From: Arcticibacter tournemirensis
Lineage (GTDB): Bacteria > Bacteroidota > Bacteroidia > Sphingobacteriales > Sphingobacteriaceae
Direction of reading: 5' to 3'
Assembly (NCBI RefSeq): GCF_006716645.1
Contig: NZ_VFPL01000001.1
Location: forward strand, 620,001-684,000
Length of the DNA: 64,000 nucleotides
Each line of letters begins with the position of its first letter. Position 1 is the stretch's first letter. Below, piece after piece: positions 9,305 through 22,968 of the stretch. Position numbers and translations under genes: made by a program. Under the pieces are notes generated by a model, which was not told the DNA's origin, made no database searches, and saw only the letters and a program-made list of their open reading frames with translations.

Positions 9305-10288
9305 TTAAGCATAAATATTAGCAAGACGGAATAAGAAGAAAGCAGTATCTCTAACACCTCTGGAGGTAGCTCTGAAAGCCTTGATCTTGGCATTGAAAGA
9401 TTCAGCAGCGGCGTTGGTACTTCTGTTGTCAAAGAAGTTCAGGATATATTCGTAATGGCTTTGTACCGATCTGGCTACTGTGCTGAAAGAATCAATAGCA
9501 GAAGTTTCCACATCATTATACCACATGGCCAGTCTTTTAAAAGCCTGTGTCTTGCTCTTACAGATGGTAAAGATGTTACTTAACCTGAGGGCTAACTGAT
9601 AGGCTTTATGTAACAGGGGATAGCGGGGAAATAGGATGTCTGCACGTTCTTTTTGTGATGGAGTCCATTTGCTTTCGTGTTTAAAGAGCAGATATCTGCT
9701 TCGGGCCAGGAGCTGCTTGAGGGTATCGCCATTAGGAAGCACCTCAGGCTGATAGCTTTGTTTGGTTTTCCTGGCCTGGGCAATCCGTCCGTTCTCCTCT
9801 TCCAAAGCTTCCCACCGGTATCTGATCCTGAGCTCCTGAACAGCATCGCTGGCAAGCTTTTGTACATGGAACCGGTCAATGACCCGGCGGGCAGATGGAA
9901 AGCATCTTCGGATAGCTTTGGCCATATTTGCAGCCATATCCAGGGTTACTTCTTTTACTTTTTTTCTCAGGCGGAATGATATACGCTCTAAAACTGCAAT
10001 GATCTGATCGGCCTGAGTGCCTTTCAGCATGGCTACAATGCTCCCTTTTCTCCCTCTTGCAGCCTTATTAGTGATTATAGTATACAATTCTCCGCCAGAG
10101 AGGGCCGTTTCATCTATACTGAGGTATTCTCCCATGTTGGCCGGGAATATCATCCATTCGGCAGCATGATCTTTCTGTTCCCACTGATGGAATGTACTGA
10201 TATGATCTTTATATTGTTCCTGTAACTGTTTACCGTCAATCCTAAAATAGTGTCCCAGTTGATGACAGCTTACCGGATAATTATCCAA
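9305..10288 (-). CDS. ISL3-type DDE transposase
   Basis: A 327-aa transposase. It shows the catalytic elements of DDE_Tnp_ISL3: IDETALSGGELYTIITNK (first Asp), VTLDMAANMAKAIRRCFP followed by VIDRFHVQKLASDAV (second Asp region), and AAESFNAKIKAFRATSRG (Glu) near the end. The likely start is TTG at 10288, overlapping the end of the upstream IS frame by 8 bp, so it is probably translated by coupling or frameshift with it. An in-frame stop lies just upstream, so the frame cannot extend further. The downstream end lies 10 bp from the left inverted repeat, so the gene is complete. Confidence 0.88.
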   Translation of the reverse strand: MDNYPVSCHQLGHYFRIDGKQLQEQYKDHISTFHQWEQKDHAAEWMIFPANMGEYLSIDETALSGGELYTIITNKAARGRKGSIVAMLKGTQADQIIAVLERISFRLRKKVKEVTLDMAANMAKAIRRCFPSARRVIDRFHVQKLASDAVQELRIRYRWEALEEENGRIAQARKTKQSYQPEVLPNGDTLKQLLARSRYLLFKHESKWTPSQKERADILFPRYPLLHKAYQLALRLSNIFTICKSKTQAFKRLAMWYNDVETSAIDSFSTVARSVQSHYEYILNFFDNRSTNAAAESFNAKIKAFRATSRGVRDTAFFLFRLANIYA

Positions 10289-11093: not shown

Positions 11094-11702
11094 ATGAATA
11101 TCTGCAACGAACAGTCCGATATGGAATTAGTTACCTTGTTAAAAGCAGGTGATGTTCTTGCCTTTACAAGGCTATACAACAAATACAGTCGAAAAATGTA
11201 TATTAATATGTATAGGATGGTAAAGGACAACGATGTTGTAGAGGAGATGATTCAGGTTTTATTTTCACGGATATGGCAACATCGGGAAGCTATTACTTAT
11301 GAATTTGATTTTTCCTCTTATCTCTACCGTGCCGCATCGAATCTGGTATGCGACTTTTATAGGAAGTTGGAAAGTGACAAAAAAATGAGGGCCCATTTTA
11401 TATCCACCATAACTGAACACTATTCCCATATAGAAGAAGATATATATTTCAAGGAAAGTAAGATGCTTTTAGAGCAGGCGTTGGCTCTGCTTTCCCCTCA
11501 GCAACGGCATGTTTATCAACTATGTAAAATTGACGGTTTTAGTTATAAAGAAACTGCAGGCAGGCTCGGGATTTCTCCATATACGGTTAAAGAATATCTT
11601 TGTACGGCAAAACGCCTGGTTAGAACTTTTATTACGGCGAACATGGAAACTATAGGTTGTTTTACAGCTGTTTCTTTTTTGTTGAGTAAGTTATACTTTT
11701 AA
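11094..11702 (+). CDS. ECF sigma-70 factor, FecI/Bacteroidota type
   Basis: A 202-aa extracytoplasmic-function sigma factor. Sigma region 2 (about residues 20-90: AFTRLYNKYSRKMYINMYRMV, EEMIQVLFSRIWQHREAI) and region 4 (about 125-180: ALALLSPQQRHVYQLCKIDGFSYKETAGRLGISPYTVKEYL, a helix-turn-helix) are clear; region 3 is absent as in all ECF factors. The next gene is a FecR anti-sigma factor, followed by a SusC with an STN domain, the classic trio in which an outer-membrane receptor signals through FecR to the sigma factor. It most likely reads the TCCCCCC-N16-CGTCTTTA promoters at 11711, 13160 and 15004. Confidence 0.92.
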   Translation: MNICNEQSDMELVTLLKAGDVLAFTRLYNKYSRKMYINMYRMVKDNDVVEEMIQVLFSRIWQHREAITYEFDFSSYLYRAASNLVCDFYRKLESDKKMRAHFISTITEHYSHIEEDIYFKESKMLLEQALALLSPQQRHVYQLCKIDGFSYKETAGRLGISPYTVKEYLCTAKRLVRTFITANMETIGCFTAVSFLLSKLYF

Positions 11703-11710
11703 GAACTTAA

Positions 11711-11741
11711 TCCCCCCGTTTTCTTTTGAAATGCGTCTTTA
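11711..11741 (+). promoter_or_regulatory. Putative ECF-sigma promoter P1, before fecR
   Basis: TCCCCCC (11711-11717), a 16-nt spacer, then CGTCTTTA (11734-11741). The same two boxes with identical spacing occur at 13160 and 15004. Transcription would begin about 10 bp before the fecR ATG, which suggests autoregulation of the anti-sigma gene. The -10 box CGTC resembles the general ECF -10 element; the assignment is inference. Confidence 0.6.
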
Positions 11742-11756
11742 GATAAAGCTTAATGA

Positions 11757-13016
11757 ATGAACGACCAGGAACTATCGGTTTTGTTTAAAAAATTATTAGA
11801 AAATAAATGCTCTGAAGAGGAAGCGGAACTTTTATTAACGATACTTGCCGATAAATCTAAAGAGAAGCAATTGTATTGGTTGATCAGGAATCAGCTAAAG
11901 GATACCGGTTTCTCCAATGCTGCCGATGATATCAACGACTCAGTAAAAGAGTCACTCGACCTCCGGCTTCAGCAAATTTTAAATTCTGATATTCCTGTTT
12001 CAAAAAAGCCAACCATGCGAATAATATCACCCAGGCGGTTGTGGTATGCTGCTGCTGTGGTGATCCTGTTTGTTTCTATAGGATCTTATTTCTATATAAA
12101 AGACTCAATAGGATACGTCTCTGAGATACATCACCCCGGCAGGGAGATTGTTGCCGGAAGGAATAAAGCAATATTAACGTTAAGTAACGGGCAAAAAATC
12201 AATTTAGACGACGTATCAGCTGGCAATATCGCAACGCAGGCCAATACCATTATTAAAAAGTCAAAAGATGGCGTTCTTACTTATAATGAAAATAGCGATG
12301 AGGCGGCTTCAAATCAAAGACCCGGTCTAATATTCAATACTGTTACAATCCCTAAAGGAGGACAGTATCAGGTTATACTACCCGATGGATCGAGGGTTTG
12401 GCTAAACGCCGCTTCGTCTCTTAAATTTCCAGCTCAGTTTTCTAAAGACGAACGGGTTGTTGAGTTGCAAGGTGAGGGGTACTTTGAGATAGTCTCCATT
12501 CCGCGTCCGTCATCCGAACCTGGGAACGGCAAAAAAGGTAATCTTCCCTTCATAGTTAGAAGTAACCATCAAAAAATTGAAGTAGTAGGAACAGAATTCA
12601 ATGTGAATGCTTATCCTGACGAAACTTCCGTTAAGACGACTTTAGTTCAAGGCTCCGTAAAAGTTTGCGTTTTAAACGGCCTTACTGATAAGGAACTTAC
12701 ATCAAATCAAACACTTCATCCAGGACAGCAATCTGTAATTACCGGAAATGACCTTGTTATTCAGAATGGGAACATTGAATCAGCTACAGCGTGGAAAAAT
12801 GGAAGTTTTCAGTTTGATAATGAGGAGATACAGGTGGTGATGCGAAAAATAGCCAGGTGGTATGATGTTGAAATCGAATATCATGGTAGCATGCAGGGGA
12901 AGGTTTTCACTGGTACCATATCAAAATATAAAGATGTGAAAGACGTCTTAAAGATGCTGCAATTAACCGGAAGTGTTTCATTTACCATTAAGGATCGTAA
13001 AATATTGGTTTCTTGA
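11757..13016 (+). CDS. FecR-type anti-sigma factor
   Basis: A 419-aa inner-membrane anti-sigma factor. A cytoplasmic N-terminal part of about 93 residues that should hold the sigma factor is followed by one membrane helix (about 95-114, WYAAAVVILFVSIGSYFYI). The periplasmic FecR domain follows (about 195-310; PKGGQYQVILPDGSRVWLNA, ELQGEGYFEI, VVGTEFNVNAY) and then a C-terminal DUF4974 domain (about 345-417; FQFDNEEIQVVMRKIARWYDVEIEY) expected to contact the STN domain of the SusC receptor. It lies 54 bp after the sigma gene with promoter motif P1 in between. Confidence 0.93.
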   Translation: MNDQELSVLFKKLLENKCSEEEAELLLTILADKSKEKQLYWLIRNQLKDTGFSNAADDINDSVKESLDLRLQQILNSDIPVSKKPTMRIISPRRLWYAAAVVILFVSIGSYFYIKDSIGYVSEIHHPGREIVAGRNKAILTLSNGQKINLDDVSAGNIATQANTIIKKSKDGVLTYNENSDEAASNQRPGLIFNTVTIPKGGQYQVILPDGSRVWLNAASSLKFPAQFSKDERVVELQGEGYFEIVSIPRPSSEPGNGKKGNLPFIVRSNHQKIEVVGTEFNVNAYPDETSVKTTLVQGSVKVCVLNGLTDKELTSNQTLHPGQQSVITGNDLVIQNGNIESATAWKNGSFQFDNEEIQVVMRKIARWYDVEIEYHGSMQGKVFTGTISKYKDVKDVLKMLQLTGSVSFTIKDRKILVS

Positions 13017-13159
13017 TGATTGTAAGGGAAGCATAAGTACAAGCTCCAATATCTTTAATCAGCATAGGATGCTGAGACTGCCAATTATTCAAATGACAGT
13101 AAAGATAGAAGGCAGCTTCAATTGACGATTTCTACCCCCTTAAATAAGATTTAAAAGCA

Positions 13160-13190
13160 TCCCCCCTTTTTCTGTCGATACCCGTCTTTA
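13160..13190 (+). promoter_or_regulatory. Putative ECF-sigma promoter P2, before the unknown lipoprotein
   Basis: TCCCCCC (13160-13166), 16 nt, CGTCTTTA (13183-13190). The similarity to P3 extends further: both have CAT before the C-run, CCGTCTTTATT at the second box and then an A-rich run followed by GAATAA. It lies about 95 bp before the ATG at 13286. Confidence 0.65.
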
Positions 13191-13285
13191 TTAAAAAGCC
13201 TGAATAACAAAGCTGTATCAAATAAAATGAATATTTATTATCCGATTTATCAAATTATTTATCACTAATAAAAAAACTAACAATT

Positions 13286-14320
13286 ATGAAAACGATTATT
13301 TTGAAGGAATGGCCAGTTCTTGTCTGCGTTCTTGTATTATCTTTTTTTTTATCGTGCAGAAAGGATTCGGAAAGCAAAGAATTCTCATCGCAGCAAGCTG
13401 ATGCAGTATGGGAAACACAGCTTAAGCAAGTTCTCACGACAGGTAATGACTTCCTAAAAGAATCATCTTTAAAGATGACAGGTTATAAGGAAAAGGAAAT
13501 ATTAGCATCTAGGCCTGAAATTGAAAGATTCAAGAATAGTTTGTTAACAGATGAAAAGGTTTTACCTGATTATTCACCTGTTGATTTAAAGGACCTCCAA
13601 TTGATTAAGATTGGAGAAATAAAGCGGAAAACCTCAGGAGTGAAACATAAAGCCCTTACTTATGATATAACAGGCTCTTCCGTATTTTTAGACTCCGTAG
13701 TTAAGATAGGTCAAAAAATCATTGAGATAGCATGGGAAAATAATGGGGTTCCATTTACCACCCAAGCAGTTGTAGATGATAAAATAGGGATCATCTACGA
13801 TAACTTGATTTCTAACATAATGATTATTAAAGAAGAACATGAGGGAGAAGTTGTTCTGGATCCCAATAAAGCTACACTGACCACCGATATCTGTATCTCT
13901 ATGCCTTTTCCGGAACCAGGTATCACTCCCAGACACAAAACTGTTTCACATGGATGGACAGCTCAATGGTTATGGGGATCTGACCGCGGAGAAGCCAGGG
14001 TGAGTCATACTGTAGAAGGATATACTGATACGAGGACGGGTCATGCAAAGCAAGTTTTAACTTGTTCGGCTGTTGACGCTTATTCTTATATGACTTTAGG
14101 CAAAGGAGATGCGAAAATTGTCAATCATTCTACACATTATGGAGAAGATGGGTCGTCATCTGTACATTGGGGCCTTTACCTTGCCGCTCCAACTGTCTCG
14201 ATTTCTATGACATACTCACCTGGTTCGGGTTTTAGTATAACGTTAGGTACAGCACTCGGCTCTGAGTTACACCATACGGGATCCGAGTTTATTTCTGCCT
14301 TGCATTTTCAAACAATGTGA
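13286..14320 (+). CDS. Exported lipoprotein of unknown function
   Basis: A 344-aa protein with a lipoprotein signal peptide (LSFFLSCRKD, lipobox Cys about residue 24), so it is anchored in a membrane, probably outer. The N-terminal half is charged and helical. The C-terminal half (from about residue 205) is rich in His, Ser, Thr, Gly and aromatic residues, as in WTAQWLWGSDRGEARVSHTVEG and SSSVHWGLYLAAPTVSISMTYS, suggesting beta structure. I do not recognise the family. It is preceded by promoter motif P2, so it appears to belong to the ECF regulon, and sits between fecR and susC where such a gene is not normally found. The gene is visibly AT-rich. Confidence 0.7.
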   Translation: MKTIILKEWPVLVCVLVLSFFLSCRKDSESKEFSSQQADAVWETQLKQVLTTGNDFLKESSLKMTGYKEKEILASRPEIERFKNSLLTDEKVLPDYSPVDLKDLQLIKIGEIKRKTSGVKHKALTYDITGSSVFLDSVVKIGQKIIEIAWENNGVPFTTQAVVDDKIGIIYDNLISNIMIIKEEHEGEVVLDPNKATLTTDICISMPFPEPGITPRHKTVSHGWTAQWLWGSDRGEARVSHTVEGYTDTRTGHAKQVLTCSAVDAYSYMTLGKGDAKIVNHSTHYGEDGSSSVHWGLYLAAPTVSISMTYSPGSGFSITLGTALGSELHHTGSEFISALHFQTM

Positions 14321-14326
14321 CATTTT

Positions 14327-14890
14327 ATGAATAAGCTGCTTTGCCTTTTTGTTATTTTCTGTTGGAAATATACTTTGGCGCAAAATACAGATTCAGTTAT
14401 TTGGAAGGAAAATAAAATAGCGGATAGCTTTTCCGCTATCCCTATATATGACAGCGGCCCGAAGCAATGCAACAGTTGCATTTGCAATCTAAAAAACTTA
14501 TTTCGGTCGTGGAAAAAGGACAATATCATTAATTATGATGAGATTGAGTTAACGGGATACCGATTGGTCGATTCTTTGACCGATAGTCTGAAAATTCGTC
14601 AGTATTATGAGAGGATTGTTGATACCTCGAGTAGTTATTTTATTCAATACAGCGGCAATACAAAAATGCTGAAATTACTAAAGGCCGACACTCTGTCGAA
14701 GGAGTATGAAGAGGCATTGCAGTATATGCGAAATCAGTTAGCGTTGTCACTTACACTTAATAGTACTGTGTATGTTATCGACATGCGACTGAAAGATGGT
14801 ACCAAAATTGAAAATTATGCTGTTTGTGATAAGGCTAAACGAAAGATTACCTATGATAATATGTTTTTTTATTTTTATTTATTTAGATGA
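14327..14890 (+). CDS. Small exported protein of unknown function
   Basis: A 187-aa protein with an N-terminal signal sequence (MNKLLCLFVIFCWKYTLAQ). After it comes a Cys-rich patch (KQCNSCICNLKNLF), then a mixed helix/strand region ending in an aromatic tail (NMFFYFYLFR). No known domain is recognised. It starts 6 bp after the upstream lipoprotein and is surely co-transcribed with it from P2. The pair may modulate the receptor or act on the imported substrate; nothing in the sequence decides this. Confidence 0.65.
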   Translation: MNKLLCLFVIFCWKYTLAQNTDSVIWKENKIADSFSAIPIYDSGPKQCNSCICNLKNLFRSWKKDNIINYDEIELTGYRLVDSLTDSLKIRQYYERIVDTSSSYFIQYSGNTKMLKLLKADTLSKEYEEALQYMRNQLALSLTLNSTVYVIDMRLKDGTKIENYAVCDKAKRKITYDNMFFYFYLFR

Positions 14891-15003
14891 CGACTGGAAT
14901 TAATTCCTATTCACCAGTTCTCTTTTACTATCTCCAACTCATTCTTATTTATTATAGCCGGGAAACGATATTATATCCGTTTTGAAAAAATATTTACGAG
15001 ACA

Positions 15004-15034
15004 TCCCCCCATTTCTTTCAGTTAACCGTCTTTA
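15004..15034 (+). promoter_or_regulatory. Putative ECF-sigma promoter P3, before susC
   Basis: TCCCCCC (15004-15010), 16 nt, CGTCTTTA (15027-15034), followed by the GAAAAACCGGAATAA stretch that parallels P2. It lies about 210 bp before the susC ATG, so the transcript would have a long leader. Confidence 0.65.
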
Positions 15035-15246
15035 TTGAAAAACCGGAATAATACGCGGGTATAGGATAGGTACTATATCGGATGAATTATAGTAATACCA
15101 ATTTTAAATGAAAGGAGTTCGAAATATGATTTAGAATTATATCTATCAGAATAAAACCAGGAGCGGTTGCGACGCTCCCGGTTAATGTTGGCTTCTCAAA
15201 GTCATTCTGTTACTAACAATTATAACTTAATAAAACTAACATTCAA

Positions 15247-18200
15247 ATGTATAAAACTTCTACGGCATTTCGCGGGCTTATAGCACTTTGCGTAATTCCA
15301 AAATTCATCAAGATAATGAAGCTTACTGCTATTTTATTAATAGCCTCACTAGTACAAGTGAGCGCCGCAAGTTTCGGGCAGAGAGTAAGTCTCTCTTTAA
15401 GACGGACTTCACTTGAAGATGTTTTAAAAGAAATTAAAGTACAGACAGGGTACAACATTCTGTATAACCCGGTAGTCCTTCGAAACACCAAGCCTGTAAC
15501 GGTAAAGCTCGGAGATGCGCCGATTGAATACGCACTGGAAAAGTGTTTCGAAGGGCAGCCCGTAAGCTACACTATTGAACAGAAGACAATTATTGTTAAA
15601 AATAAGCCTGCGGATGCTGCCAATAAAATAGTTCGTGCAGAGGTGCCGAAGATTACTATAACCGGCACAATCAGGGATTCGGTAGGAACCTTACCCGGTG
15701 TGTCTATCGTCATTAAGGATACTAAACTTGGTACGAAAAGTGATGAAAACGGACGATTTGTGCTGGACGTTCCCAATGAGAATGTGGTGCTGGTCTTTTC
15801 TATGGTGGGCTATTTGAAACAGGAAGTTCCCGTTAGGGGAAGGGAAGTGTTTAACATCATGCTTAAGCCAGACACTAAAGGACTCGAGGAAGTTGTCGTT
15901 GTAGCCTTCGGAACGCAAAAAAGGACAGACATGATCGGATCGGTTACTTCCGTTAAGGTATCCGACCTTAAAATTCCGTCAAGTAACCTTACTAATGCAT
16001 TAGCGGGACGGGCCGCCGGTATGATTGCTTTTCAGCGCAGCGGAGAGCCTGGGCGCGACAATGCCGATTTCTTTATTCGGGGGGTCACCACCTTTGGTTA
16101 TAAAAACACTCCTTTGATTCTGATTGATGGCATGGAATTGACGACTACCGATCTTGCCCGCCTTCAGCCCGACGACATATCAAGTTTTTCTATCATGAAA
16201 GACGCTACGTCAACCGCGCTGTATGGTGCACGCGGAGCAAACGGTGTTATCCTGGTTACTACTAAACAGGGTGCGGTAGGAAAAGCACAAATTTCATTGC
16301 GTTTAGAAAATTCAGTGTCCGCTTCGGTAAAAGACATTGAACTGGCAGATCCTATTACCTATATGCTGCAGTCTAACGAAGCAATTCTAACACGTAACCC
16401 TTTAGGAACAACGCTTTATAGTGATGAAAAGATCGCAAACACTGCAGCTGGCGTTAATCCCATTGTTTATCCCGCAAATGATTGGCGGAAACTTATGTTT
16501 AAGGATTACGCGGTGAACCAGCGTGTAAACCTGAATGTAAGCGGCGGAGGAGATGTTGCCAGGTACTTCGTTTCGGGTTCCTTAAATAAGGACAATGGAT
16601 TGTTAAAGGTAGATCACCGGAATAATTTTAATAATAATATAGACCTGAAAAGTTATTCGCTTCGATCCAATATCACCGTGAACCTGACTAAATCGACCGA
16701 AATGATCGTCCGTTTGAGCGGAAACTTCGATGATTATACCGGTCCTATGGACGGAGGCGCAGAAATGTACCGCAAAGTGATGCGTTCAAATCCGGTATTG
16801 TTTCCGATGTTTTACCCCGTGGATGCAGCGCATTCATATGTAAAACACATTATGTATGGCAATTTCGAAGAAGGAGGATATACTAATCCCTATGCTGACA
16901 TGACCCGTGGCTATATGGATTATTCAAGATCATTGATGCTGGCGCAGTTAGAGGCAAAGCAGGATTTATCTGTTTTGACGAAGGGGCTCTCTCTGAGGGT
17001 AATGATGAACACTAACCGCGCATCTTATTTCGATGTTAAGCGCGAGTACAATCCTTATTTTTATTCACTCGCCGGCTATGATCCTTCGGCAAATACTTAT
17101 TTTTTAAAGAATATTAACGAAAATACCGCTACAGAATATCTTGGCTACCGTGAAGGAGGAAAGACACTCAATTCCACGTTTTACATGGAATCCATGTTAA
17201 ATTATAATGCTCAGTTCAAAAAGCACGGAGTTAGTGGATTACTGGTTTACATGATGCAGAATAACATTAACGCCAATGCAGGAGATCTTCAGCAATCACT
17301 GCCGTTTAGAAACCTGGGTTTATCTGGGAGAGCGACGTACAATTTTGATAGCCGTTACTATCTTGAATATAACTTTGGCTATAATGGATCGGAAAGGTTC
17401 GCTGAAAAAAATCGTTTTGGGTTTTTCCCGTCTGTGGGGATAGCATGGAGTGTGTCTAACGAAAAGTTTTTTGATAAAGTAAGGCCGGTTATCAACAACC
17501 TCCGGTTAAGGGCAACGTATGGTGTTGTTGGAAATGATGCCATCGGATCGCCTTCAGACCGGTTCTTCTATTTGTCTAATGTCGACATGAACGCCGGGGC
17601 AAGATACGCTGTTTTTGGAAACGGTCAGGGTGCATCATTTGGATTGAATGGAGTTAATATATCCAGATATGCAAACAGTGATATCACCTGGGAAAAATCC
17701 ACAAAGACAAATCTAGCACTTGAACTTGGGCTGCTCAATAAATTAAAGGTAAATGCCGACTTCTACTCCGAACAGCGTAAGAATATCCTGATGAGACGTG
17801 AGGCCATACCTGTTACTATGGGTTTAACCGCAGATGTAAGGTCGAACGTCGGCGAAGCTTCAGGGAAAGGAATGGATATTTCTGCCGATTACCAGCAATC
17901 CATTAGTCGTGACTTCTGGTTTTCGGCGATGGGTAACTTTACGTATGCAAAAAGCAAGTATAAAGTTTATGAAGAGCCGGTATACGACGAAAAATACCGC
18001 AGCCGCATAGGCCATCCCATTTTCCAGGAGTATGGGTATATAGCAGAACGGCTATTTGTTGATGATGCCGAAGCAGCGAATTCCCCAAGGCAAAATTTTG
18101 GAGCCTATGGTGGAGGGGATATCAAGTACACTGATGTTAACCGTGACGGCCAGATTACGGAAGCAGACAGAGTGCCAATTGGAAATCCGAGATTACCTGA

Positions 18201-18675
18201 AATAGTATACGGCTTTGGCTTTTCAGCTGGTTATAAAAGCTTCGACCTTTCTGCCTTTTTCCAGGGTTTAGCTAACGAATCGTTTTGGATAGATGCTGCT
18301 GGTACCTCACCGTTCAATAATCAAACCCAATTACTGAAGGCTTACGCCGACAGCCACTGGTCTGAGGATTCGCGCGATGTATACGCACTGTGGCCCAGGC
18401 TAAGCCCCAATCTCAATAACAATAATAATCAAACCAGTACCTGGTTTATGCGCGACGGTTCATTCTTACGTTTGAAGCAGGTGGAAATTGGTTACAAAAT
18501 TCCTCAAAGTATTCAAAAAAGGCTTCATGCCTCAGGTTTTCGACTCTATGTAAATGCCAGTAACCTGGTCAATATCAGCAAATTCAAGTTGTGGGACGTT
18601 GAAATGGGTGGAGACGGGCTCGGTTATCCTATTCAGCGTGTATTTAATATAGGTTTAAACATATCATTGAAGTAA
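15247..18675 (+). CDS. SusC/RagA TonB-dependent receptor with STN signalling domain
   Basis: A 1142-aa outer-membrane importer. An extended signal sequence (to about residue 45) typical of Sphingobacteriaceae SusC proteins is followed by an STN/secretin-N domain (about 50-115; LRRTSLEDVLKEIKVQTGYNILYNP). Next come a carboxypeptidase-regulatory-like domain (about 135-205), a TonB-box-like stretch (LEEVVVVAFGTQKRTD), the plug (AGRAAGMIAFQRSGEPG, FIRGVTTFG, SFSIMKDATSTALYGARGANGVILVTTK) and the 22-strand barrel. The STN domain is the hallmark of receptors that report ligand binding to a FecR anti-sigma factor, in agreement with the genes upstream. It heads an operon with susD (13-bp gap) and two surface lipoproteins. 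Confidence 0.95.
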   Translation: MYKTSTAFRGLIALCVIPKFIKIMKLTAILLIASLVQVSAASFGQRVSLSLRRTSLEDVLKEIKVQTGYNILYNPVVLRNTKPVTVKLGDAPIEYALEKCFEGQPVSYTIEQKTIIVKNKPADAANKIVRAEVPKITITGTIRDSVGTLPGVSIVIKDTKLGTKSDENGRFVLDVPNENVVLVFSMVGYLKQEVPVRGREVFNIMLKPDTKGLEEVVVVAFGTQKRTDMIGSVTSVKVSDLKIPSSNLTNALAGRAAGMIAFQRSGEPGRDNADFFIRGVTTFGYKNTPLILIDGMELTTTDLARLQPDDISSFSIMKDATSTALYGARGANGVILVTTKQGAVGKAQISLRLENSVSASVKDIELADPITYMLQSNEAILTRNPLGTTLYSDEKIANTAAGVNPIVYPANDWRKLMFKDYAVNQRVNLNVSGGGDVARYFVSGSLNKDNGLLKVDHRNNFNNNIDLKSYSLRSNITVNLTKSTEMIVRLSGNFDDYTGPMDGGAEMYRKVMRSNPVLFPMFYPVDAAHSYVKHIMYGNFEEGGYTNPYADMTRGYMDYSRSLMLAQLEAKQDLSVLTKGLSLRVMMNTNRASYFDVKREYNPYFYSLAGYDPSANTYFLKNINENTATEYLGYREGGKTLNSTFYMESMLNYNAQFKKHGVSGLLVYMMQNNINANAGDLQQSLPFRNLGLSGRATYNFDSRYYLEYNFGYNGSERFAEKNRFGFFPSVGIAWSVSNEKFFDKVRPVINNLRLRATYGVVGNDAIGSPSDRFFYLSNVDMNAGARYAVFGNGQGASFGLNGVNISRYANSDITWEKSTKTNLALELGLLNKLKVNADFYSEQRKNILMRREAIPVTMGLTADVRSNVGEASGKGMDISADYQQSISRDFWFSAMGNFTYAKSKYKVYEEPVYDEKYRSRIGHPIFQEYGYIAERLFVDDAEAANSPRQNFGAYGGGDIKYTDVNRDGQITEADRVPIGNPRLPEIVYGFGFSAGYKSFDLSAFFQGLANESFWIDAAGTSPFNNQTQLLKAYADSHWSEDSRDVYALWPRLSPNLNNNNNQTSTWFMRDGSFLRLKQVEIGYKIPQSIQKRLHASGFRLYVNASNLVNISKFKLWDVEMGGDGLGYPIQRVFNIGLNISLK

Positions 18676-18688
18676 ATCAAAGTAGATT

Positions 18689-20575
18689 ATGAGAAAATAT
18701 CTTATATACGGGGGCTTTTTATTGGCATTTCTCGCCGTGCTCAGCTCCTGCAAGAAATTTTTAGATGTTGTTCCTGATAATGTAGCTACCATCGATAATG
18801 CCTTTACCATGCGTTCTCAGGCTATGAAATTTTTATTTACCTGCTATTCATTTATGCCCAGGACAGGCCAGCTGACGGACGACCCAGCTATGGTGGGTGG
18901 CGATGAGCTGTGGGAGATTCCAGAGCGGGCTGCTTACCTTGATTTAGCTAAGGGTTTTCAGAGCAAAGTAGGGCCTTTGGGCGACCGATGGACTTCCATG
19001 TACCAGGCGATCAGGGACTGCAATATTTTTCTGGAAAACATTGACAGGGTGCCTGATATGCAGGAAGTGGAAAGAGCTCGCTGGATTGGAGAGGTGAAGT
19101 TCCTTAAGGCGTTTTATCATTTCAGTTTAGTGAGGATGTATGGTCCGGTTCCTCTGATCAGGACGAACCTTCCGATCTCGGCAGATGTAAACCAGGTAAA
19201 AGTAATGCGTGACCCGGTGGATTCGTGCTTTAATTATATTGTACAACTTTTGGACGAAGCCATTCCGGGACTTCCAACAACGATAATTAGTCCCGGCACC
19301 GAAGCTGGCCGCATTACCCAGCCAATTGCGATGGCCTTAAAAGCCAGGGTACTTGTTACCGCGGCAAGCCCGTTGTTTAACGGTAACACCGATCAGGTTG
19401 GATTGAATAACCCTGACGGAGAGCCACTTTTTAACCAAACGTACTCCAAAGAGAAATGGGAAATTGCGGCTGATGCATGTAAAAAGGCCATAGATATGTG
19501 TGAATCACAGGGGATGAAACTGTATGTTTATAATCCCGCTTTTCAGCAATATGTGCTTACCGATACCATCGAAACACAGCTGAGTATAAGAAACAGTGTT
19601 ACAGAAAAGTGGAACAGTGAAATCATCTGGGCTAATACCCAATCCAATACAGCTGACCTGCAACGATTGATCTCTACCTGGTGGGATCCCCGCTACCTTG
19701 ACGGCGTTGTAACCAGAGGGGAATTATCGCCACCATTGAAAATTGCGGAAATGTTCTATTCGGATCATGGGGTCCCTATTAACGAAGACAAAACTTGGGA
19801 TTACACCGGAAGATATGCTTTAAGAAAAGCAGGAAAAGACGACAGACTATATATCCGAAATGGCTATACCACAGTGGGACTGCATTTTGACAGAGAGCCG
19901 AGATTCTATGCTGACCTTGGTTTTGACGGTGGTATTTATTACGGACAGGGACATTATGACGATAAAGACGATATGAATCTGTTCTACCTGGAAGGAAAAT
20001 TTAAACAGAGAAATGGAAAAGGAAAATATGGCTTCAATACCGTCACGGGCTATTACATTAAAAAACTGATCCATTTTCAGAATGTAGTGAATTCTTCAAG
20101 CGATTACTCTGTTGTTGATTATCCGTATCCGCTAATGCGTTTGTCTGATCTGTATCTCTTGTATTCGGAAGCACTGAATGAAGCACAGGGCCCCGGTCCG
20201 GAAGTATATAAATATATTGATCTTGTCAGAAAGCGCGCTGGGTTGGGCACCGTAACCTCATCATGGACTAATTATTCTACAAATCCCGCAAAATTTACAA
20301 ATCAGGACGGGATGCGCGCGATCATTCATCAGGAAAGGTTGATAGAGCTGGCTTTTGAGTCGCAACGTTTCTGGGACCTGCGTCGTTGGAAAGAATCAGC
20401 CAGAGAATTGAATAATCCAATCAAGGGCTGGGACCTTTCGCAAACAACTGCCGCTTCTTTTTACCGGACAACTGTACTGTTTAATCAAACCTTTGGAACA
20501 AAGGACTATTTCTGGCCTATTGCTGACAATAATATCACCACCAACAGAAACCTGGTGCAAAACCTGGGCTGGTAA
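18689..20575 (+). CDS. SusD/RagB-type glycan-binding lipoprotein
   Basis: A 628-aa surface lipoprotein (lipobox LSSCKKFLDVVPDN) that forms the lid of the SusC channel and captures the substrate. The SusD_like N-terminal region with TPR-type helices (WTSMYQAIRDCNIFLENID, AEVKFLKAFYHF-type) and the C-terminal SusD domain (YPLMRLSDLYLLYSEALNEAQG, IIHQERLIELAFESQRFWDLRRWK) are intact. It is coupled to susC by a 13-bp gap. At 628 aa it is of the larger SusD class. Confidence 0.95.
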   Translation: MRKYLIYGGFLLAFLAVLSSCKKFLDVVPDNVATIDNAFTMRSQAMKFLFTCYSFMPRTGQLTDDPAMVGGDELWEIPERAAYLDLAKGFQSKVGPLGDRWTSMYQAIRDCNIFLENIDRVPDMQEVERARWIGEVKFLKAFYHFSLVRMYGPVPLIRTNLPISADVNQVKVMRDPVDSCFNYIVQLLDEAIPGLPTTIISPGTEAGRITQPIAMALKARVLVTAASPLFNGNTDQVGLNNPDGEPLFNQTYSKEKWEIAADACKKAIDMCESQGMKLYVYNPAFQQYVLTDTIETQLSIRNSVTEKWNSEIIWANTQSNTADLQRLISTWWDPRYLDGVVTRGELSPPLKIAEMFYSDHGVPINEDKTWDYTGRYALRKAGKDDRLYIRNGYTTVGLHFDREPRFYADLGFDGGIYYGQGHYDDKDDMNLFYLEGKFKQRNGKGKYGFNTVTGYYIKKLIHFQNVVNSSSDYSVVDYPYPLMRLSDLYLLYSEALNEAQGPGPEVYKYIDLVRKRAGLGTVTSSWTNYSTNPAKFTNQDGMRAIIHQERLIELAFESQRFWDLRRWKESARELNNPIKGWDLSQTTAASFYRTTVLFNQTFGTKDYFWPIADNNITTNRNLVQNLGW

Positions 20576-20612: not shown

Positions 20613-21812
20613 ATGAAAAGAATATATTTTATCGGAGGACTGTTGATTGTTTTTTTCTGGTTGGGGTGTTCAAAAGAAGGAAGACTTGACTTCATAGATG
20701 AGGATTTACCTGCTCCCTTGAACGTCAGTAATGTAAAGGTTTCTCCAACGCCGGGAGGAGCTGTACTTACATATAAGCTTCCGTCAGACCCGAACCTTTC
20801 TTATATAAAGGCTGTCTATGAAATTCAGCCAGGGGTATTCAGAGAAGCTAAATCATCACGATACACGGATACACTCCGGCTGGTAGGGTTTGGCGACACA
20901 TTAAAACATGCGGTGAAAGTATTCAGCGTAGGGAAGAATGAGAAAGTCTCGGAACCTATATCGGTCGATGTCATCCCCAGGACACCCGCTGTCAGATCTG
21001 TGTTTGCTACTGCAGATTTTTCTTCAACTTTCGGAGGAGTAAGTGTTTCCTTTAAGAATCCGGATAAGGCAGAACTGTCAATTGTAGTAATGAGGGATTC
21101 AACTGGCAATAATACATGGACAAAGGTGGCCACTTTTTATACTGCTGCCGTGTCCGGGAACTTTGCTGCACGAGGTCTCGAATCTGAACCACAGAAGTTT
21201 GCCATGTTTGTCCGCGACCGCTGGAACAATAGATCGGATACGCTTTTCAAAACACTTACCCCTAAGTTCGAGGTGGAGATCCCAAAAACAACCTGGAGTG
21301 CCCTGGTGCTGCCAACAGACCAAACGGCGCTTGCCGAACCTGGGTTTGTTTTGAGTAATTTGTGGAATAAGGTAATCGGAATTCCGGGTACCGGTGCAAA
21401 TTACGCCTCATCGAATAGCTCTACACTTCCTCAATGGTTTACGATTGACTTGGGTAAGAAAGTGCTGATGAGCAGATTTAAAATGTTTATGGACGCTGCC
21501 GACGGCCATTGTTATGTAGGCTCTGGCGTGAAAAGGTTTGAACTATGGGGTTCAAATTCTCCGGACACAGACGGTGGATGGACTCAATGGCAGCTGCTTG
21601 GAACATTTGAAACGTTTAAACCTTCTGGTTTACCCTTAGGTCAGGCAACCGCTGAAGATACGAATTACGCTTCGATCCTTGGCTGTGATTATGGGTTTGA
21701 TAATCAGCCGCCTGCGGTACGGTACCTTCGGTGGAAAACGCTCGAAACCTATGCCAGCCCAGGACAGGTTGTTATAGCAGAAATCTCACTTTGGGGCCAG
21801 GTTGAACCCTAG
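20613..21812 (+). CDS. Surface glycan-binding lipoprotein, DUF4959/DUF5126/DUF5000 type
   Basis: A 399-aa lipoprotein (lipobox WLGCSKEG). The order is an N-terminal fibronectin-like DUF4959 (about 30-130, PAPLNVSNVKVSPTPGGAVLTYKLP), a middle DUF5126-like domain (about 130-225), and a C-terminal DUF5000 domain resembling F5/8 type C (discoidin) carbohydrate modules (about 250-399, PQWFTIDLGKKVLMSRFKMF, RYLRWKTLE). These proteins accompany SusCD pairs and are taken as auxiliary surface glycan-binding proteins. It is third in the susC operon. Confidence 0.85.
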   Translation: MKRIYFIGGLLIVFFWLGCSKEGRLDFIDEDLPAPLNVSNVKVSPTPGGAVLTYKLPSDPNLSYIKAVYEIQPGVFREAKSSRYTDTLRLVGFGDTLKHAVKVFSVGKNEKVSEPISVDVIPRTPAVRSVFATADFSSTFGGVSVSFKNPDKAELSIVVMRDSTGNNTWTKVATFYTAAVSGNFAARGLESEPQKFAMFVRDRWNNRSDTLFKTLTPKFEVEIPKTTWSALVLPTDQTALAEPGFVLSNLWNKVIGIPGTGANYASSNSSTLPQWFTIDLGKKVLMSRFKMFMDAADGHCYVGSGVKRFELWGSNSPDTDGGWTQWQLLGTFETFKPSGLPLGQATAEDTNYASILGCDYGFDNQPPAVRYLRWKTLETYASPGQVVIAEISLWGQVEP

Positions 21813-21849
21813 TTACCTTACTAATGATCAGTGTAAATTTTATTATATT

Positions 21850-22968
21850 ATGAAGAAGATATTCAGTAATACTATGATGATCGTGGTACTGTTCCTGGCA
21901 TTTTGTGCTCTCCCGGGCTGTACAAAAATGGACAGTACTTATAAAGAGTTTGTTGTTCCGGGCGGCTTAACCTATGCGGGTAAAGCGAATTCGCCGAAAG
22001 TATACCCGGGATTCAATAGAGTAAAGATTGCCTGGGTGAGGGGCTCGGACCCTGATGTGATAAGCGCCCGGGTGTTTTGGAATAACTTTAGAGATTCGAC
22101 AGTGGTGTCAATCCCCCCCACAGGGGATACTATCAGTGTCATTATTGATAATCTGCAGGAGAAAAGTTATTCGTTTGTAATCCGCACCTATGATAAAAAG
22201 GGCAATTCATCCATTCCAGTCGAAGCAATTGGTGGTTCTTACGGCGAGAAATACCAGTCGCAGTTGTTAACCCGGCCAGTGAACTCTACGCTAAGCGATA
22301 CTAAAGGCAAGATTACCATTCAGTGGGGCGCTGCAGATATTTCTAATGGTGCATTCGCCTCGGAAGTTAAATACACCGATGTTAACGGAGACATCAGGTA
22401 TCAAATGTTTCCTACAGATCTTCCGACTTCTGAAATTACTGGCCTTAAACCCAATACGGGCTACCAGTACAGGACCATGTTTAAGCCTGATTCGCTAAGT
22501 ATCGATAGTTTTTATACAGCATATTCAGAGGCCGGATTCTTTAACTTTGATAAAAAAGACTGGCGAGTGATCAGTTATTCAGATCAATATTCAGATGGAG
22601 ATAATGCTGCTGCTAACATTATTGATGGCACTGATGGGACGCGCTGGCATACGAATGGCTCTGCGTATCCGCACTATGCTACGATAGATATGGGGGCTGT
22701 ACGTACAATTTCGCAGTTTGGTGTGTGGAGAACGCTTTTTGATACACCTAATGGTGATGACCGGGCGCCCACCCGTATTGAGTTTTTAATTAGCATGGAC
22801 AATCAAAACTGGACAAGCCTTGGAGAATATGCTTTTAATAATTCAATTAACGGAGAGCAGGTGTTTCCAATATCCGGATCTCCTAAAGGCAGGTATTTTA
22901 AATTTGTGGGACTTAGGGGAAATAATCATTTCATGACGCTCGGAGAGATTAGTGCATACGGTTTTTAA
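21850..22968 (+). CDS. Surface lipoprotein with DUF4998 and F5/8 type C domains
   Basis: A 372-aa lipoprotein. The ATG at 21850 (MKKIFSNTMMIVVLFLAFCALPGCTKMD) gives a proper lipobox, unlike an upstream start at 21802. The N-terminal half fits DUF4998 (YAGKANSPKVYPGFNRVKIAW...). The C-terminal part from about residue 230 is a discoidin-like F5/8 type C module (NIIDGTDGTRWHTNG, HYATIDMGAVRTISQFGVWR, RYFKFVGLRGNNHFMTLGEI) for sugar binding. It is the last gene of the susC operon, followed by a strong terminator. No glycoside hydrolase follows. Confidence 0.85.
   Translation: MKKIFSNTMMIVVLFLAFCALPGCTKMDSTYKEFVVPGGLTYAGKANSPKVYPGFNRVKIAWVRGSDPDVISARVFWNNFRDSTVVSIPPTGDTISVIIDNLQEKSYSFVIRTYDKKGNSSIPVEAIGGSYGEKYQSQLLTRPVNSTLSDTKGKITIQWGAADISNGAFASEVKYTDVNGDIRYQMFPTDLPTSEITGLKPNTGYQYRTMFKPDSLSIDSFYTAYSEAGFFNFDKKDWRVISYSDQYSDGDNAAANIIDGTDGTRWHTNGSAYPHYATIDMGAVRTISQFGVWRTLFDTPNGDDRAPTRIEFLISMDNQNWTSLGEYAFNNSINGEQVFPISGSPKGRYFKFVGLRGNNHFMTLGEISAYGF

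Follow-up and report, generated by a model that had tools for sequence, protein, structure and literature searches.

A poly-C and CGTC box pair as the predicted promoter of a FecI-like ECF sigma factor at a SusCD locus of Arcticibacter tournemirensis

Three sites in the window (the whole 64,000-nucleotide stretch of the Arcticibacter tournemirensis genome that was analysed), each with a run of cytosines followed by an CGTCTTTA box, are very probably promoters to which the ECF sigma factor encoded at 11094 directs RNA polymerase, as judged by comparative sequence analysis. The sequence of these sites, their uniqueness, their co-inheritance with one clade of sigma factors and their association with the recognition helix of those factors were established here. 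The coordinates of the three sites and of the surrounding genes are given in Table 1.

Table 1. Genes and predicted promoters of the sigma/FecR/SusC locus (window coordinates; the −35 box is the C-run and the −10 box is CGTCTTTA)
Feature	Position	Strand	−35 box	−10 box	Predicted start	Basis or remark
ECF sigma factor, FecI-like	11094..11702	+				Pfam Sigma70_r2, Sigma70_r4_2; alignment and tree
Promoter copy 1 (fecR), predicted	11711..11741	+	11712-11717	11734-11741	~11746	Exact motif; conserved in sigma orthologues
FecR-type anti-sigma factor	11757..13016	+				FecR and FecR_C domains
Promoter copy 2 (lipoprotein gene), predicted	13160..13190	+	13161-13166	13183-13190	~13195	Exact motif
Lipoprotein-like protein, no family assigned	13286..14320	+				Behind copy 2
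187-residue protein, no family assigned	14327..14890	+				ORF
Promoter copy 3 (susC), predicted	15004..15034	+	15005-15010	15027-15034	~15039	Exact motif; conserved before susC in seven orthologous loci; leader ~208 nt
SusC receptor with STN domain	15247..18675	+				Profile matches
SusD	18689..20575	+				Profile match
Two surface-protein genes (DUF4959/DUF5126/DUF5000; DUF4998/F5_F8_type_C)	20613..22968	+				Domain matches

The sigma factor consists of regions 2 and 4 only and, at 202 residues, has the length of about 200 that is typical of FecI-like factors; its gene adjoins those of a FecR anti-sigma factor and an STN receptor. Its best NCBIfam match is the Bacteroidetes sigma subfamily TIGR02985, yet with 106.3 bits, below the cut-off of 126.4, while the superfamily model TIGR02937 was passed (85.7 against a cut-off of 42.9). 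The recognition helix of region 4 reads SPYTVKEYL. The genome holds 39 FecR_C matches, some of them within receptor reading frames, and 31 further fecR loci (the window locus being left out) were taken for comparison. Where susC is the next gene in these loci it starts 44-248 nt after fecR; the window locus is unusual in that a gene pair is inserted between the two. The lipoprotein gene of this pair had no match in Pfam or NCBIfam, and a search of 400 other genomes of the family found no homologue; the 187-residue protein had no match in the family profile searches. The two genes are separated by 6 nt and are probably on one transcript. The two surface-protein genes stay beside susCD in orthologous loci and are probably part of the susC operon. 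An ISL3-type transposase gene was observed between prfA and the sigma locus (9305-10285), and no close sigma orthologue was found in five other genomes of the genus (best 42-43% identity); on these two grounds the sigma locus may have been acquired.

A pattern scan of the window found TCCCCCC-N16-CGTCTTTA exactly three times, all on the + strand and at coordinates identical to those of the initial annotation, before fecR, the lipoprotein gene and susC. No match was obtained in 100 dinucleotide-preserving shuffles of the window, even with a spacing of 14-18, and the chance expectation at fixed spacing with independent bases is 4e-5 per window. That no further copy exists in the window, earlier judged by eye, was borne out by a relaxed scan (C4-N15-17-CGTC) which still returned only these three sites, and CCCCC-N14-20-CGTCTTTA occurs only there in the whole 5.66 Mb genome (pattern searches). 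As CGTCTTTA alone is frequent in the window (8 observed against 2.3 expected), the information resides in the pair of boxes. Flanks shared between copies 2 and 3 were also present as first described.

Orthologues of the sigma factor (65-75% identical) were found in six species of the family (one genome each) and in Flavitalea sp. BT771. All seven orthologous loci have C6-N15/17-CGTCTTTA both in the sigma-fecR gap (one reads CCCTCC) and before susC, and in all seven the susC site is present without the inserted gene pair. In one genome susC lies on the opposite strand, away from fecR, and the site is still found ~290 nt upstream of susC. Among homologues at 47-52% identity the fecR site is kept and the susC site is absent, so that the latter is missing from the more distant half of the C-run clade, and two clade members (L133 and L138) retain the C-run with a diverged −10 box. 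Six homologues at 39-45% identity have no C-run before fecR. The 15 C-run sigmas form one clade in the tree (support 100/100), and a class-wide search of 395 genomes gave no additional orthologue at E<=1e-43.

When the 300 nt preceding fecR were scanned uniformly, a strict match was obtained in 12 of the 15 clade loci and in none of 1838 control segments; at the 31 paralogous fecR loci of the source genome not even five consecutive Cs were present in that interval. In 14 genomes selected for carrying sigma homologues, 24 unique sites were found in 13 genomes, of which 18 belong to the orthologous locus, 3 fall into sigma-fecR gaps of other loci and 3 lie elsewhere (two were checked and both are within genes); the reversed control pattern had no site in the same 14 genomes. 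The initial annotation had proposed such a scan of related genomes, and reasoned that a motif equally common inside genes and unrelated to sigma/FecR loci would speak against a promoter; with 21 of 24 sites at sigma-fecR-susC loci, the opposite was observed. The factor encoded at 11094 looks like a dedicated single-locus sigma. The exact motif was also considered as a general FecI code and rejected: in 151 genomes of the family the matches in other genomes were nearly all intragenic, as by chance, and outside the source genome only one locus (L054) had it between sigma and fecR. The idea of a FecI-type promoter code thus holds for one sigma clade but not for FecI-like factors generally. Four sigma-fecR gaps outside the window clade (L145, L156, L169 and L174, with sigma helices TVKT, TVKE or TVQS) also contain CCCCC-N15/16-CGTCTTTA, which may mean that C-rich −35 boxes came into use independently or at an early date.

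When 22 sites were aligned, the C positions and all eight positions of CGTCTTTA were invariant or nearly so, the spacer was 16 in 17 sites, and conservation was confined to the boxes, a T-rich start of the spacer and an A at the predicted +1. This A is located 12 nt after the C of CGTC, the position expected for the start of an ECF promoter, and the predicted starts in Table 1 were derived from it. The run length varies from 6 to 9, but the 3' edge of the run holds a constant distance to the −10 box, so the functional −35 box is probably formed by the 3'-most part of the run. CGT in the −10 box and AAC in the −35 box have been named as ECF hallmarks (PMC8103513); the sites have the former within the near-invariant CGTCTTTA, in agreement with the earlier view of CGTC as an ECF-type −10 element, and CCCCCC in place of the latter. 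The variation in run length was seen among orthologues (L126-L128 and L135-L138), and a C-run of variable length in a promoter is a possible slippage site for expression switching.

In the alignment, the helix TVKEYL is common to all sigmas of the clade and follows an H or a Y. Helix and box were compared within the family in three further sigma samples (74 loci), where T[VI][NS]DH helices line up with a GAGCAG box and TV[KR]KQ helices with C-rich boxes, for example CTACCCCAT or TACCCCCTAA. The C content of the −35 zone was 3.5 per 7 nt for Lys/Arg helices and 1.8 for Asn/Ser helices (Mann-Whitney P = 1e-6), with no difference in the spacer (P = 0.23), in a comparison which excludes the window clade and whose statistics ignore shared ancestry. 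Automatic anchoring of the −10 box misplaces some loci (e.g. L134 and L138) and was used for class-level contrasts only; by this procedure many of the genome's own paralogues were without a convincing promoter. An out-of-sample set was drawn from the family of Flavitalea, selected by sigma sequence alone. The C-run was present in 9 of 10 T[VIL]KEYL loci (including L256, whose helix reads HTLKEYL) compared to 0 of 8 others, with a background of 28 matches to the C-run pattern in 2438 segments; the exception, L253, has a KEYL sigma and no site in the expected place. GAGC[AC]G was present in all 5 T[VI][NS]DHI loci (GAGCCG in L269).

By motif alignment, the Lys of TVK corresponds to Arg171 of E. 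coli sigma-E, the residue that forms a bond with the template G at −31 (PMC6713349); a Lys facing the Gs opposite the C-run would fit the sigma-E geometry at −31. Taken across samples from two families, with statistics that ignore descent, the data make it reasonably likely that in FecI-like sigmas of Bacteroidota the −35 box in the sigma-fecR gap is determined by the residues at the start of the region-4 helix. The code as we propose it, with similar confidence, pairs T[VIL]KEYL with CCCCCC, T[VI][NS]DHI with GAGCAG, TV[KR]KQ with C-rich boxes such as CTACCCCAT, and TVSNQL with AATAGTGT, together with a CGT or TGT −10 box. Since the motif is present at orthologous loci, absent at the genome's own paralogues and predictable from the helix, it follows the sigma orthologue and not the genome, which supports the original suggestion that it is the recognition sequence of the sigma factor at 11094.

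It is very unlikely that the box pair acts as an operator for a different DNA-binding regulator which travels with the locus, with transcription arising from other promoters. A distance of ~23 nt between the boxes would be compatible with a dimeric regulator too, and the C-run does not resemble known ECF −35 boxes, but the two boxes are not repeats of one another, the second has the form of an ECF −10 box, the interval from sigma to susC holds no gene for a further DNA-binding regulator, and in two families the site is present or absent in step with the sigma recognition helix. The common flanks of copies 2 and 3, together with the restriction of the inserted lipoprotein gene to this genome among the 400 others searched, could be taken to mean that these copies are remnants of a recent duplication which carried the inserted genes, and that only the fecR copy, or none, works; however, the susC site is kept in the seven orthologous loci that lack these genes, and the boxes stay unchanged where spacers and flanks have diverged, so that remnants are very improbable and duplication of a working promoter is likely. 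There is scarcely any probability that the element acts in RNA, within a leader structure: the susC leader is long and has a conserved hairpin farther downstream, but the element ends ~15 nt short of the fecR start codon, the hairpin also occurs in loci without the motif, and Rfam gave no match between 11000 and 15400.

With the three sites read as sigma-dependent promoters, binding, start sites and signal flow are inferred from sequence as follows. The C-run would be the −35 box, read by the region-4 helix TVKEYL, and CGTCTTTA the −10 box, with transcription predicted to begin ~12 nt after the C of CGTC. FecR would hold the sigma factor until the STN-SusC receptor, sensing its substrate, causes FecR to free it; free sigma would transcribe fecR, the susC operon (susC, susD and two more genes) and the inserted two-gene unit, a putatively recruited unit found in the source genome only. 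Both of its genes sit behind their own copy of the motif (copy 2), in keeping with the earlier proposal that the two genes without a family belong to the regulon. The distance of 144 nt from fecR places copy 2 where orthologues retain the susC site, and on this ground the inserted pair probably took the old susC promoter while susC acquired a duplicate, or vice versa. The drive on fecR would form a feedback loop that is either damping or reinforcing, the latter if activation also requires FecR, as it does in E. coli. The autoregulation of fecR, as first envisaged, is supported in that fecR has its own site, and no site was found upstream of 11094 in the motif scan of the window; the sigma gene itself would stay outside the loop, which would run via the anti-sigma factor. 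Judged by the motif only, the sigma gene is not autoregulated, and FecI-like ECFs have been stated to be exceptions to autoregulation (PMC8103513).

Leaders of susC were examined in the window and in the fecR-susC gaps of L063-L092 and L125-L145. Of 49 leaders, 28 contain a Shine-Dalgarno-like stretch followed by ATG and, after one to three codons, a stop; the same arrangement was seen in 9 of 512 controls. Bacteroidota do not usually rely on Shine-Dalgarno sequences. This stretch is the end of fecR where fecR adjoins susC, and stands alone in the window (15111-15134, AAAGGAG...ATGATTTAG) and in L127-L131. Downstream of it, a GC-rich hairpin is present in about 40 of 49 leaders, 60-120 nt before the susC start (15155-15183 in the window), with varied but matching stems, usually an A-run before it and no T-run behind. 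On the opposite strand this hairpin looks like a terminator, a feature that an antisense RNA of the DonS type would require (PMC7366714).

The locus resembles the FecI/FecR/FecA system of E. coli (PMC9249621) in its ECF sigma factor, FecR anti-sigma factor and receptor with an STN signalling domain, in the transcription of the receptor gene by the sigma factor, predicted for the window locus, and in that the sigma gene, here as judged by the motif, is not its own target; it differs in that fecR is predicted to have its own sigma-type promoter, the receptor is the SusC of a SusCD pair, and an extra unit has been recruited. A CGTC −10 box, a spacer of ~16 and a T-rich spacer start are shared with ECF promoters (PMC8103513) and with SigW and sigma-E −35 complexes (PMC6713349), and the sigma-E complex likewise has a basic helix residue where the template G at −31 is bonded (PMC6713349); the −35 box differs from those of ECF promoters in being CCCCCC, without AAC (PMC8103513). 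The ECF-type promoters of SM6 in Flavobacterium psychrophilum, also a species of Bacteroidota, have a CGT box at −10 (PMC9723704), but the SM6 regulon relates to type IX secretion, unlike the dedicated FecI-like sigma and single receptor locus seen here. The clostridial sigma-I cellulosome set also has many paralogous sigmas per cell regulating polysaccharide degradation, in another sigma family, with other sensors and in another phylum (PMC6056542).

Bacteroidota genomes carry dozens of sigma/FecR/SusC loci, where start signals of this kind are hard to find: ECF promoter prediction in Bacteroides has been called challenging and in need of start-site data (PMC3878776), no motif was known for the ECFs of B. 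thetaiotaomicron in 2020 (PMC7366714), and for a Flavobacterium one ECF-type motif has been reported, whose −10 box is of the CGT type (PMC9723704). A −35/−10 pair with an unusual poly-C −35 box is now assigned to one sigma clade, and the place to look for such promoters is the sigma-fecR gap, not the region that precedes the sigma gene. If the proposed code is true, dozens of parallel receptor loci per cell would be insulated by divergence of their −35 boxes. The helix association, if true, would explain how similar receptor systems avoid cross-talk, and would make glycan-uptake regulons predictable from sequence.
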